In this document: positions 50,723-56,863 of the stretch, piece after piece
Position numbering within the stretch: position 1 is the first letter of the stretch
How the letters are laid out: each line of letters starts with the position of its first letter
DNA from: Salinilacustrithrix flava
Lineage (GTDB): Bacteria > Actinomycetota > Acidimicrobiia > Acidimicrobiales > Salinilacustritrichaceae
Reading direction: 5' to 3'
NCBI GenBank assembly: GCA_024128875.1
Contig: JAMYFF010000003.1
Coordinates: forward strand, 1-64,000
DNA length: 64,000 nucleotides
Program-made: the position numbers and the translations under genes
Notes under the pieces: generated by a model
What the model was told of the DNA's origin: nothing
Seen by the model: only the letters and a program-made list of their open reading frames with translations
The model's database searches: none

Positions 50723-51151
50723 TCAGCGTGACGAGCTGAGCGGACGGGGGCTGGATCCACGATCCAGCCCCCGTCGCACGTCCTGGACCGCCCACACGGC
50801 CAGCACGGTGGAGACGACGGCGAGCGCGGTGTGCACCGCCACGAAGGCGGCGTCGTGCCCGGCCGTCGCGATCTGCACGGCGCGCACCGCCCAGACCCCG
50901 ATCGTCCATGCCGCGAACATGCGGACCACCGGGCTCACGATGGGGTCGACCGAGCCACGCCGGCGCCCCTGCCACCACAGCCAGAGCACGGCGACGGCGA
51001 ACGCTGTGAACGACACCGACAGCGCGGTTCGACCGATCTGGCCGGTGGTCGTGAGCGACTCGTCGGTCCAGATGTTGCGGATCCGGGTCGTCCAGACGAA
51101 CAGCGTGAAGGCCGACAGGGCGAGCGCAGGCCGCAACCGGGCGGGGGTCAT
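50723..51151 (-). CDS. membrane protein, 142 aa
   Basis: I do not recognise this 142-residue protein. Four hydrophobic helices are visible: PALALSAFTLFVWTTRIRNIW, TALSVSFTAFAVAVLWLWW, VVRMFAAWTIGVWAVRAVQIA and AAFVAVHTALAVVSTVLAVWAV, with a basic Ser-rich tail. TAGCGT ends 7 nt before the ATG. The last codons lie inside a strong 15-bp hairpin (50743-50775) that probably terminates the convergent carboxypeptidase transcript. Confidence 0.75.
   Translation of the reverse strand: MTPARLRPALALSAFTLFVWTTRIRNIWTDESLTTTGQIGRTALSVSFTAFAVAVLWLWWQGRRRGSVDPIVSPVVRMFAAWTIGVWAVRAVQIATAGHDAAFVAVHTALAVVSTVLAVWAVQDVRRGLDRGSSPRPLSSSR
50743..50775. terminator. strong 15-bp hairpin
   Basis: GACGGGGGCTGGATC pairs perfectly with GATCCAGCCCCCGTC across a 3-nt CAC loop. 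It lies 38 nt after the carboxypeptidase stop and within the last codons of the convergent membrane-protein gene. It has no T-run but is the strongest hairpin in the window. Confidence 0.75.
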
Positions 51152-51236
51152 GCCAGCGACGCTACCGACGGGCGCTGTGCCCGACGCCATCGCCCCCGCC
51201 GTCCGGTTCGCGCCCGTTCCGGGCAGAATGGGGGCC

Positions 51237-51944
51237 ATGGAATCCTTCGCCCCGACCCAGCCGGTCGCCACGCTCGACGCCGAGGAGCGTGGCGCCTTCG
51301 TGATCCGGGTGTACCAGCACCTGCTGCTCGCCATCGGCGCGTTCGTCGCCTTCGAGACCGTCCTGTTCCAGACGGGCATCGCCGAGGCCATGTTCGACTT
51401 CCTCACCGGTGCCAGCAGCGCCTGGCTGCTCATCCTGGGTGCCTTCATGGTCATCCAGTGGATGGCCACGTCCGCGGCCCACAACCTCGAGAACGAGGGC
51501 CTCCAGTACGCCGGCCTGTTCGGGATGGCCGCCGGCCAGGCGCTGATCTTCGCCCCGTTCCTGTACTACGTCTTCAACGACCCGAAGAACGGCTCGGGCT
51601 CCGTCGCCGCCGCTGCGGTCATCACCGTCGCCGGCTTCGCCGGCCTCACCGTCGTCGCCTTCGTCACCCGCAAGGACCTGTCGTTCCTTCGGCCGATGCT
51701 CATGTGGGGCGGCATCGCCGCCCTGGCGCTCATCGTGGTCGCGGTGCTCTTCGGCTTCCAGCTCGGCATCTGGTTCTCGGTGGCGATGATCGCCCTCGCC
51801 GGCGGCGCCATCCTCTACCAGACCCAGCAGATCATGGCCCGGTACCCGTCGCACGCCCACGTGGGCGCGGCGGTGCAGCTGTTCGCCTCGGTGATGATGC
51901 TCTTCTGGTACGTCCTGCGCCTGGTGAGCCAGCTCCGCCGCTGA
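51237..51944 (+). CDS. Bax inhibitor-1/YccA family membrane protein
   Basis: The 235-residue protein has about seven hydrophobic helices and the BI-1 pattern, including AGLFGMAAGQALIFAPFLYY, GFAGLTVVAFVTRKDLSFL and the C-terminal FASVMMLFWYVLRLV. BI-1/YccA proteins are calcium-leak or protease-modulating membrane proteins; the role here is not known. ATG 51237 is preferred over the in-frame ATG 51228 because CAGAAT ends 7 nt before it. Confidence 0.88.
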   Translation: MESFAPTQPVATLDAEERGAFVIRVYQHLLLAIGAFVAFETVLFQTGIAEAMFDFLTGASSAWLLILGAFMVIQWMATSAAHNLENEGLQYAGLFGMAAGQALIFAPFLYYVFNDPKNGSGSVAAAAVITVAGFAGLTVVAFVTRKDLSFLRPMLMWGGIAALALIVVAVLFGFQLGIWFSVAMIALAGGAILYQTQQIMARYPSHAHVGAAVQLFASVMMLFWYVLRLVSQLRR

Positions 51945-54972: not shown

Positions 54973-55167
54973 ATGGCTGCCACCGGAACCCTGGAACGTC
55001 CGCGCCGAGGAGACGGGCGCGTCATCGCCGGCGTCTGCGCCGCGATCGCCGATCGCTTCGGCGTCAGCCGCACCCTCGTGCGGCTGCTGTTCGTCATCTT
55101 CGGCCTGGTCGGCGCCGGCGAGGTCGCCTACCTCGTCCTGTGGGTCCTCGTGCCGAAGCGGGACTGA
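54973..55167 (+). CDS. PspC-domain membrane protein
   Basis: A 64-residue protein of the PspC family: the soluble RRGDGRVIAGVCAAIADRFGVSRTLVRLLFVI segment followed by one helix (LFVIFGLVGAGEVAYLVLWVLVP). PspC proteins sense envelope stress. The length is that of the minimal domain. No other psp gene is nearby. TAGCGA precedes the ATG by 6 nt as a possible -10. Confidence 0.88.
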   Translation: MAATGTLERPRRGDGRVIAGVCAAIADRFGVSRTLVRLLFVIFGLVGAGEVAYLVLWVLVPKRD

Positions 55168-55186
55168 CCCGATCCATCGAGTACCG

Positions 55187-55228
55187 CCAACCTAGGTTGA
55201 CACCATTTCACCGTCAACGTAGGTTGGC
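55187..55228. promoter_or_regulatory. dual-operator promoter of the HTH/Clp-N operon
   Basis: A textbook promoter, TTGACA (55197-55202), 17 nt, TAGGTT (55220-55225), then 7 nt to the ATG, is overlaid by two copies of one near-palindromic site. Copy 1 is GCCAACCTAGGTTGAC (55186-55201) over the -35; copy 2, inverted, is GTCAACGTAGGTTGGC (55213-55228) over the -10. They differ at one base and their centres are 27 bp apart. The core CAACCTAGGTTG of copy 1 is a perfect palindrome. A dimeric repressor, possibly the encoded HTH protein, is implied. Confidence 0.7.
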
Positions 55229-55232
55229 ACTC

Positions 55233-55475
55233 ATGCAGGGGGCGCCGGACACGATCGAGGTACCCGACCCCTCCGACCCGGAAGCGGCGTTCGCCTCGGT
55301 GGTCGCCCTGCGACGGCTCGCAGACCGACTGGAGCTCGCGGCAGTAAACGTCGCCGTCCGGCAGGGCTGGTCCTGGACCGACGTCGCCGCGGCCCTCGGC
55401 GTGAGCCGGCAGGCCGCCCACAAGAAGTTCGCCCGCCGAGTCGAACGTCCGGTCACCCGACACCGAAGGGACTGA
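55233..55475 (+). CDS. small HTH protein, 80 aa
   Basis: An 80-residue helix-turn-helix protein: an acidic N-terminus (VPDPSDPEAAFASVVALRRLADRLELAAVNVAV) then WTDVAAALGVSRQAAHKKFARRV at about 48-70, a classical HTH, and an Arg-rich tail. It is a likely DNA-binding regulator with no ligand domain. Its leaderless promoter carries two operator copies (55186-55228), suggesting autoregulation. The next gene, 2 nt away, encodes a Clp N-terminal repeat protein. This gene pair recurs in actinobacteria, as far as I recall, with unknown function. Confidence 0.8.
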   Translation: MQGAPDTIEVPDPSDPEAAFASVVALRRLADRLELAAVNVAVRQGWSWTDVAAALGVSRQAAHKKFARRVERPVTRHRRD

Positions 55476-55476
55476 C

Positions 55477-55995
55477 ATGCTCCGCAGGCTTCGAGGGCGC
55501 GCCGTCGCCATGAAGACGATCGCCGCGCTCCTGACCCAGGCGGAGCAGATCGCCCGAGCGCGCGGCACCGAACAGCCGGCGGCCGAGCACCTCGTCCTGG
55601 CCGCGCTGCAGCTGCCCGACGGCACCGCGGCAGGTGCGCTGGAGCGCCTCGGCTCCTCTGCCGCCGACTTCGGGGCGGCCCTCGACGCGCAGGAGGTCGA
55701 GGATCTCGAACGCATCGGGGTCCGCCCCGACGACGACCGCATCAGCGCCGAGCTCCCGCCGCCGGGCGAACCGGTCGGCATCTACCGGAGCGACCCCTCC
55801 GCGCAGGAGCTGTTCCAGGCCGCCGGGGACGACGCCCGACGAGAGGGCGGCGCGCTCGTCGGCGCGCACGTGCTCCGCGCCGCGGCCGACCTCGAGCACG
55901 GTCCCACCGCCCGAGCGCTCCGTCGCCTCGGCATCGATCGCACCGAGCTCCGGTCGGCCGCGACCGCCGAGATCGAGGCACGAGCCGGCGGCTGA
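55477..55995 (+). CDS. Clp N-terminal repeat protein, no AAA+ domain
   Basis: A 172-residue protein made of two Clp-N (ClpA/ClpC N-terminal) repeats: IAALLTQAEQIARARGTEQPAAEHLVLAALQLPDGTAAGALERLG, then the second with DPSAQELFQAAGDDARREGGALVGAHVLRAAADLEHGPTARALRRLG. These normally recruit adaptors and substrates to the Clp unfoldase; here no ATPase follows, so it may act as an adaptor or anti-adaptor. It starts 2 nt after the HTH gene stop. A later ATG at 55510 is possible, since the repeat begins there. Confidence 0.8.
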   Translation: MLRRLRGRAVAMKTIAALLTQAEQIARARGTEQPAAEHLVLAALQLPDGTAAGALERLGSSAADFGAALDAQEVEDLERIGVRPDDDRISAELPPPGEPVGIYRSDPSAQELFQAAGDDARREGGALVGAHVLRAAADLEHGPTARALRRLGIDRTELRSAATAEIEARAGG

Positions 55996-56056: not shown

Positions 56057-56863
56057 ATGCAGGAGCTGTTGCGCGTCGCACCCGGGACCGGCCTCGACCT
56101 GTCCGCCATCGACCCCCGGTCAACCCCCGGCTTCGACGGTGGCAAGTCGGAGGGGAAGTCGCTGCTCCACGAGCGGCGCACGCACCTGGCCGACCTCCAG
56201 GACCTGCTGTACGCCGACGGCACCCAGCGCCTGCTGATCGTGCTGCAGGCCATGGACACCGGTGGCAAGGACGGCACCATCCGCCACGTCTTCCGCAAGG
56301 TCGACCCCATCGGCGTGCACATGTGGGGCTTCAAGAAGCCGTCGACGGCCGAGCTGGCGCGTGACTACCTGTGGCGGGTCCACGCCAGGGTGCCGGCCGA
56401 CGGCGAGGTCGTCGTGTTCAACCGCAGCCACTACGAGGACGTCCTCGTGGTGCGGGTGCACGGCCTGATCGACGACGAGCAGGCCGAGCGCCGCCTCGCG
56501 CACATCAGCGACTTCGAGCGGATGCTGGCCGAGGAGGGCACGACCATCGTCAAGCTGTTCCTCCACATCAGCAAGGAGGAGCAGGCCGAGCGGCTCCGGT
56601 CGCGGTTGGAACGCCCCGACAAGCACTGGAAGTTCTCCTCAGCCGACGTCGCCGAGCGCGCCCACTGGGACCGCTACCAGGGGGTCTACCGGGACGCCAT
56701 CGCGTCGACGTCGACCGAGGATGCTCCCTGGTACGTCGTCCCGGCCGACCGCAAGTGGTATCGGAACCTGGCCATCAGCACGATCCTGGTCGAGACCCTC
56801 GAGGGCCTCGGCATGTCCTATCCCGAGCCCGAGGAGGGCTTGGAGGACATCGTCATCGACTAA
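56057..56863 (+). CDS. ppk2: polyphosphate kinase 2 family protein
   Basis: The 268-residue PPK2 enzyme transfers phosphate between polyphosphate and nucleotides. The Walker A is MDTGGKDGT (66-74), the Walker B/lid region is VVVFNRSHYEDVLVVRVHG, and RPDKHWKFSSADVAERAHWDRY is the family lid and substrate motif. The single-domain length fits the class that phosphorylates AMP, ADP or GDP from polyphosphate. The TAA stop overlaps the stop of the convergent glycosidase gene, so there is no room for a terminator between them. Confidence 0.92.
   Translation: MQELLRVAPGTGLDLSAIDPRSTPGFDGGKSEGKSLLHERRTHLADLQDLLYADGTQRLLIVLQAMDTGGKDGTIRHVFRKVDPIGVHMWGFKKPSTAELARDYLWRVHARVPADGEVVVFNRSHYEDVLVVRVHGLIDDEQAERRLAHISDFERMLAEEGTTIVKLFLHISKEEQAERLRSRLERPDKHWKFSSADVAERAHWDRYQGVYRDAIASTSTEDAPWYVVPADRKWYRNLAISTILVETLEGLGMSYPEPEEGLEDIVID

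Follow-up and report, generated by a model that had tools for sequence, protein, structure and literature searches.

What is the function of a two-gene operon in which a small helix-turn-helix (HTH) protein is encoded together with a Clp_N double-repeat protein, and whose promoter carries two copies of one operator-like sequence? The question is raised by a locus in the window analysed here (the whole stretch of 64,000 nucleotides, positions 1 to 64,000 of contig JAMYFF010000003.1 of Salinilacustrithrix flava), the features of which are collected in Table 1. The near-palindrome GCCAACCTAGGTTGAC and its inverted copy, which differs by one mismatch, have their centres 27 bp apart, and the ATG of the HTH gene follows the -10 by 7 nt and the proximal 18-mer by 3 nt. 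Judged from these positions, the boxes would lie on a promoter that gives the HTH gene a leaderless start. The two open reading frames (ORFs) are in different frames, that of the Clp_N protein (P0002) starting 1 nt past the stop of the HTH gene (TGA-C-ATG junction). Coordinates and ORFs bear out what the initial annotation had described here: two near-palindromes over the -35 and the -10, a leaderless start, and an HTH and a Clp_N gene.

Table 1. Features of the HTH/Clp_N operon and its neighbours (positions in the window)
Feature	Coordinates	Strand	Remarks
PspC-domain protein, small	54973..55167	+	Upstream of the operon
Distal operator box	55186..55201	+	18-mer 55185-55202 CGCCAACCTAGGTTGACA, family consensus matched at 12/14 positions; kept at homologues
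-35, TTGACA	55197..55202	+	Right arm of the distal box
Proximal operator box	55213..55228	+	18-mer 55212-55229 CGTCAACGTAGGTTGGCA, family consensus matched at 12/14 positions; kept at homologues
-10, TAGGTT	55220..55225	+	Within the proximal box; 17 bp from the -35
HTH protein P0001, 80 aa	55233..55475	+	ORF; HTH Pfam matches, all under cut-offs
Predicted recognition helix, residues 59-66, RQAAHKKF	55407..55430	+	Role judged from its place in the HTH
Clp_N double-repeat protein P0002, 172 aa, without ATPase	55477..55995	+	Pfam Clp_N 3.5e-11, two stretches
PPK2 polyphosphate kinase	56057..56863	+	Downstream of the operon

The boxes are nearly exclusive to this operon. When the window was searched for the 16-mer, allowing at most 3 mismatches, the 4 strand-wise matches all fell at the two boxes (the mean of the shuffles was 0.21, and 0 of 100 shuffles reached 4). 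Across the genome (4,095,387 bases in 28 contigs), the two window boxes were the sole matches to CAACCTAGGTTG when no more than 1 mismatch was tolerated and the sole exact matches to GYCAACNNNNGTTGRC; when one mismatch was accepted, GYCAACNNNNGTTGRC matched 15 places in the genome, a number close to the 9 of the backward control. The search for the operator elsewhere in the genome, as the initial annotation had proposed, thus returned exact copies at the window operon only.

No described function had been known to that annotation, a statement that has to be corrected: a fused homologue, ClpC2 (Rv2667 and its homologues), has one, as set out by Taylor et al. 2023 (PMC10030653). There, ClpC2 consists of an N-domain and a Clp_N domain without ATPase, and the mycobacterial protein represses its own promoter, judged leaderless, by binding a pseudopalindrome, CGTCAAC-n5-GTTGACG, beside its own ORF; this element, of which many of the compared actinobacteria have a second copy farther upstream, overlaps the putative -35 and -10. 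Cyclomarin A, the target of which is ClpC1, relieves this autorepression, and ClpC2 is described as a sponge that soaks up cyclomarin A (PMC10030653). According to a 2026 paper, three peptide antibiotics bind ClpC2 and the cyclomarin alone induces it (PMC12913811). The window pair resembles ClpC2 in that an HTH-type N-domain is associated with a Clp_N devoid of AAA+ modules, as far as kinship can be read from sequence profiles, and in its doubled pseudopalindrome, which covers the predicted -35 and -10 of a promoter that would be leaderless, with the half-sites GTCAAC/GTTGAC. It differs in three respects: the two domains form one polypeptide in ClpC2, whereas the window has two ORFs; the operator spacer is 5 in ClpC2 and 4 in the window; and the cyclomarin contacts are missing from the window Clp_N. 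No two-gene form of ClpC2 was met among the titles and abstract openings consulted, and we do not claim that it is unpublished.

By its sequence, P0001 is related to the antitoxin RelI and to the N-terminal domain of ClpC2. RelI (9sdc) was its best sequence match in the PDB (E 1e-4) and matched the HTH family profile with E 1.9e-6; the ClpC2 N-domain (8ada) matched the window HTH family profile with E 0.0037. When a profile of 19 split HTHs was compared with one of 9 fused ClpC2 N-termini, the probability was 98.5% over 47 columns, in one single comparison, so that the E-value is optimistic. The model of P0001 (pLDDT 84.6) has helices at residues 16-43, 48-55 and 59-66. Foldseek gave it no confident neighbour (best E 0.93) and VIA returned a DeoR DNA-binding domain (Z 5.2) and Fis (Z of ~5); 8ada and 9sdc were absent among the matches listed by either. 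The kinship of the HTH therefore rests on sequence profiles, and the fold comparison neither supports nor excludes it. A phage HTH protein family was matched in PHROG (E 1.6e-6). That ClpC2 contains an HTH has been published before, RelI having been reported to resemble the HTH region of ClpC2 (PMC13284704). RelI is, like P0001, a small HTH protein of the same family; its partner RelS is a RelE/BrnT-type toxin that cleaves 16S rRNA, whereas the partner in the window is a Clp_N protein, and the authors of that study saw no inverted repeats upstream of RelS-RelI (PMC13284704).

The window HTH was searched over 59 relatives, and HTH alignments were run against 295 genomes from the class and 396 from the phylum; the best 80 matches of a named-genome scan, mostly Streptomyces and Amycolatopsis, and 80 further regions hand-picked among the matches listed from the phylum search were used. 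After each locus had been reduced to a single HTH and identical HTH DNA had been collapsed, 244 loci were retained: 163 split (a separate Clp_N gene downstream), 24 fused and 57 without a Clp_N found; this set was picked by similarity and is redundant, and its proportions are no natural frequencies. One locus among the 57, L193, is in fact a split pair (Pfam Clp_N 5.5e-10), and one counted as split, L214, lost its Clp_N match in re-scoring. Where the Clp_N start could be placed, the two genes of split loci lay -20 to +30 nt apart in 128 of 133 pairs, with a spacing of -1 in 93, a near-overlap that would favour matched amounts of the two proteins.

Operator boxes were scored on the 14 positions of TGTCAAC-N4-GTTGACA, with a threshold of at least 10. 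All 163 split loci carried at least one such N4 box (mean of 8.9 in dinucleotide shuffles) and 155 carried two (0.6 in shuffles), the remaining 8 having one only. The spacing between boxes was 27 bp in 95 loci and 28 bp in 54; among the 84 labelled split loci, a count that leaves out the 79 from the named-genome scan, a pair 26-29 bp apart was present for 48 of the 51 genera and for every one of the 29 families. The T and the A at the centre of the proximal box are present in 87% and 92% of 153 pairs, respectively, vs 29% and 29% for the distal box, as expected if the proximal centre alone must serve as a -10; TTGACA or TTGACG is found as the -35 in 144 of these pairs, and the first start-type triplet (ATG, GTG or TTG) comes 1-4 nt past the proximal box in all 153. 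A whole-genome search of 12 genomes of 5 genera found 22 exact boxes (YGTCAAYNNNNRTTGACR), of which 20 map by coordinates to the split operon, and 0 in the backward control. For the two others (L282, L283), neither an HTH nor a Clp_N gene was noticed when the ORF lists were inspected by eye. A wider regulon was considered and set aside, none being convincing: exact boxes elsewhere numbered 0 in the window genome and 2 of 22 in these 12 genomes. The initial annotation had tied its reading to conservation of the operator at homologous pairs, and for its sequence half this is what the 163 split loci display; its proposal of a self-regulated HTH/Clp_N module is likely. The window operon is a real and widely conserved unit, and it is probably self-regulated. 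A second HTH relative in the window genome (L036, G000:C11:759087-759296, in a 131-aa frame) and similar matches in two genomes of the same genus (L024, L029) were also found; the N4 box was absent upstream of all three.

Fused loci, with windows set by the start codon, carry boxes with the half-sites of the split loci but a spacer of five: two N5 boxes in 22 of 24 and at least one in 23, L236 having a single box and L258 none. When the spacer was left free between 2 and 8, the best value was 5 in 23 of 24 fused loci and 4 in 161 of 163 split loci (154 alone, 7 tied). For 12 genomes holding both forms, the two promoters were fetched: the split one was N4 in 12 of 12, the fused one N5 in 11 of 12. 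This probably represents one inherited difference seen repeatedly rather than many independent events, because the fused forms are close kin: on the HTH-domain tree the fused label changes 2 times (1-2 in bootstrap trees) and the split label 12 times, the 68 columns of this poorly resolved tree being too few to order the split and fused forms. Co-existence of the two forms in single cells makes it a sensible reading that the spacer would insulate the two circuits from each other. Two HTH genes without a Clp_N found, L064 and L066, have N5 boxes upstream that resemble those of fused ClpC2 (TGTCAACCCTGAGTTGACA, GGTCAACTTAGGGTTGACA) and perhaps form another HTH-only branch.

Which part of ClpC2, then, reads DNA? 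By Taylor et al. (PMC10030653), dimerisation is placed in the N-domain and DNA contact at R185/R189 of Clp_N; R185A/R189A weakens ClpC2 binding in EMSA, and clpC2 mRNA of M. smegmatis goes up 2.0-fold with the R185A/R189A equivalent and 4.6-fold with R57A in the N-domain. The sequences surveyed here argue that the HTH is probably the DNA reader, because some HTH genes without detected Clp_N carry boxes. Among the 57 such loci, 21 had at least one N4 box and 16 had two (1.6 and 0.0 in shuffles); with L193 set aside as split and L017 and L080 because they end with the contig, 13 two-box loci remain, the phage locus L039 described below among them. The same conclusion is suggested by (i) the crystal fragments, which omit the recognition helix, and (ii) the pattern of R189 and R185. 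The structure 8ada comprises 72 residues and the profile alignment ends at V72, in the turn ahead of the recognition helix. This helix reads TKQAAQKRF or a close variant in fused loci and SRQAVHKKY or a close variant in split loci; in ClpC2 it falls in the gap left by the two crystallised fragments, 4-72 and 94-252. At the position equivalent to R189, arginine is present in 20 of 24 fused vs 21 of 163 separate Clp_N proteins; at the position equivalent to R185, the ClpC of this genome has arginine. Against the HTH as the reader count the 36 of 57 loci without detected Clp_N at which no box was found and the weakened binding of R185A/R189A. Five HTH-only loci of one family (L222, L225-L227, L230) have at least two N4 boxes and are followed by genes resembling ABC transporters (by Pfam for L225, by look for the others), hinting that the HTH family also controls exporters.

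P0002 matched Clp_N alone above the cut-off, with no AAA match in the Pfam scan. The solved folds nearest to its model (pLDDT 85.9) are ClpC N-domains, adaptor-bound ones included, and the ClpC2 C-domains 8b9o and 8ad9 are also among the matches; P0002 would thus share the fold of the N-terminal domain of ClpC/ClpC1, from which it differs in lacking AAA+ modules and in not being part of a chaperone. At the cyclomarin contacts (ClpC1 numbering), F80 is replaced by S, E89 by Q, and F2 is absent. Elsewhere in the genome, Clp_N is matched in two longer frames, one of 991 aa and of ClpC type, the other of 835 aa and, by its length, probably ClpB. The genome's own ClpC retains F2, F80 and E89, and the classical target is therefore present. 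Among 163 aligned separate Clp_N proteins (162 split partners and L193), 68 kept all three residues, F2 being not scorable in 37 of the 163; 18 of 24 fused ClpC2 had E89 plus F or Y at the other two contacts. Because the cyclomarin contacts are missing from P0002, its ligand is probably not cyclomarin but another one. P0002 belongs to one subfamily with the partners of L193 and L056-L058 (28-38% identity), and the profile of these five members gave matches in 10 of the 296 genomes of the class. In five of these ten genomes (L276-L280), no HTH match was found near the Clp_N gene in the fetched stretch and no convincing operator box was seen, the upstream DNA of L277 being partly N and the box search at L280 having maybe missed the gene start. 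A different ligand, or a different use, of the subfamily is therefore likely. A relative of P0002 (35% identity over 98%, E 1e-18) is encoded at 50953-51444 of plasmid NZ_CP021745.1 of Agarilytica rhodophyticola, which we take not to be an actinobacterium, and two Embleya plasmid records are also matched. A defence reading was dropped: P0002 had zero matches in PADLOC, as in PHROG, and P0001 a weak one in PADLOC (E 0.018).

We consider it rather likely that the operon is a split ClpC2, in which an HTH autorepressor acts on the boxes and a ligand-capturing Clp_N decoy frees the promoter. An HTH dimer on each box would block the -35 and the -10, and the operon would repress itself. The Clp_N protein, a free version of the receptor domain of ClpC that would be produced alongside the HTH, would capture a ligand directed at ClpC, be it antibiotic, toxin or misfolded protein. 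Either the binding of ligand to Clp_N or the depletion of its free form would then cause the HTH to leave the DNA, and more decoy would be produced. Fused ClpC2 demonstrates the principle by experiment; the split form would require a contact in trans between Clp_N and HTH, of which our literature search found no report. Counting against the split-ClpC2 model are the P0002 pocket, which is not the known cyclomarin one, the assignment of DNA binding to Clp_N by Taylor et al., the five of ten genomes in which a window-type Clp_N occurs without an HTH match in the fetched stretch, the eight one-box split loci, the 36 of 57 HTH loci with neither a detected Clp_N nor a box, and the HTH fold comparison without a confident match. 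We advance more tentatively, and with doubt prevailing, a joint reading: that a two-protein form of ClpC2 is widespread, that its HTH alone reads the operator while the separate Clp_N acts in trans, that the N4/N5 spacers insulate the two forms in cells that have both, and that the published placing of DNA reading in Clp_N would need revision, given that neither crystal fragment includes the recognition helix.

Other explanations can be set beside the split-ClpC2 model. The HTH might simply keep the operon low by itself, with Clp_N a constitutive ClpC competitor or chaperone that conveys no signal. The HTH genes of L222, L225-L227 and L230, with two N4 boxes and no Clp_N within ~900 nt downstream, would fit such an arrangement, as would the occurrence of window-type Clp_N without a detected HTH, which makes the parts look separable. 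We nevertheless regard it as unlikely: the fixed gene order, the near-overlap in 128 of 133 pairs and the 24 fusions suggest that the two proteins work jointly, and in the fused form the ligand alters DNA binding (PMC10030653). Closest to the proteolysis idea of the initial annotation is a switch in which the HTH is a substrate of ClpCP and Clp_N acts on ClpC as an adaptor or an antagonist, the output of the operon reporting ClpCP activity. Small HTH repressors are often Clp substrates, and the match of the P0002 model to ClpC N-domains, adaptor-bound structures among them, is consistent with this role. The mechanism described for fused ClpC2 works without proteolysis (PMC10030653), and we judge the switch to be distinctly improbable.

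A toxin-antitoxin pair, with the HTH as a RelI-like antitoxin and the second protein as the toxin, is suggested by the best PDB match of the HTH (RelI, E 1e-4) and by the small two-gene operon with operators on its own promoter. This proposal seems highly improbable to us, as the partner is a ClpC receptor domain and not a RelE/BrnT-type toxin, has no PADLOC match, and in 5 of the 10 genomes occurs with no HTH gene detected.

The split-ClpC2 model would matter beyond this locus. Several antitubercular peptides act on ClpC1, and for one of them ClpC2 serves the cell as sensor and sponge (PMC10030653, PMC12913811). If split pairs act alike, many actinobacteria, including Streptomyces, would hold a second, separately wired sensor. 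The two-gene operon also carries a testable consequence for ClpC2 itself: with DNA reading and ligand reading in separate proteins, the functions of the parts of ClpC2 would become separable by experiment. The role of a one-base spacer change as an insulator between two related repressors could likewise be tested in a split/fused pair.

The HTH family is also found on a phage contig, IMGVR_UViG_3300031902_000417 of IMG/VR (locus L039), where, at ~285-640, an HTH gene lies directly behind the boxes TGTCAACAGATGTTGACG and CGTCAACTAATGTTGACG and is followed by a probable portal gene (Pfam portal match below cut-off). This phage HTH, to which 41 Arthrobacter phage records contain partial matches, might compete with, or mimic, a host repressor.
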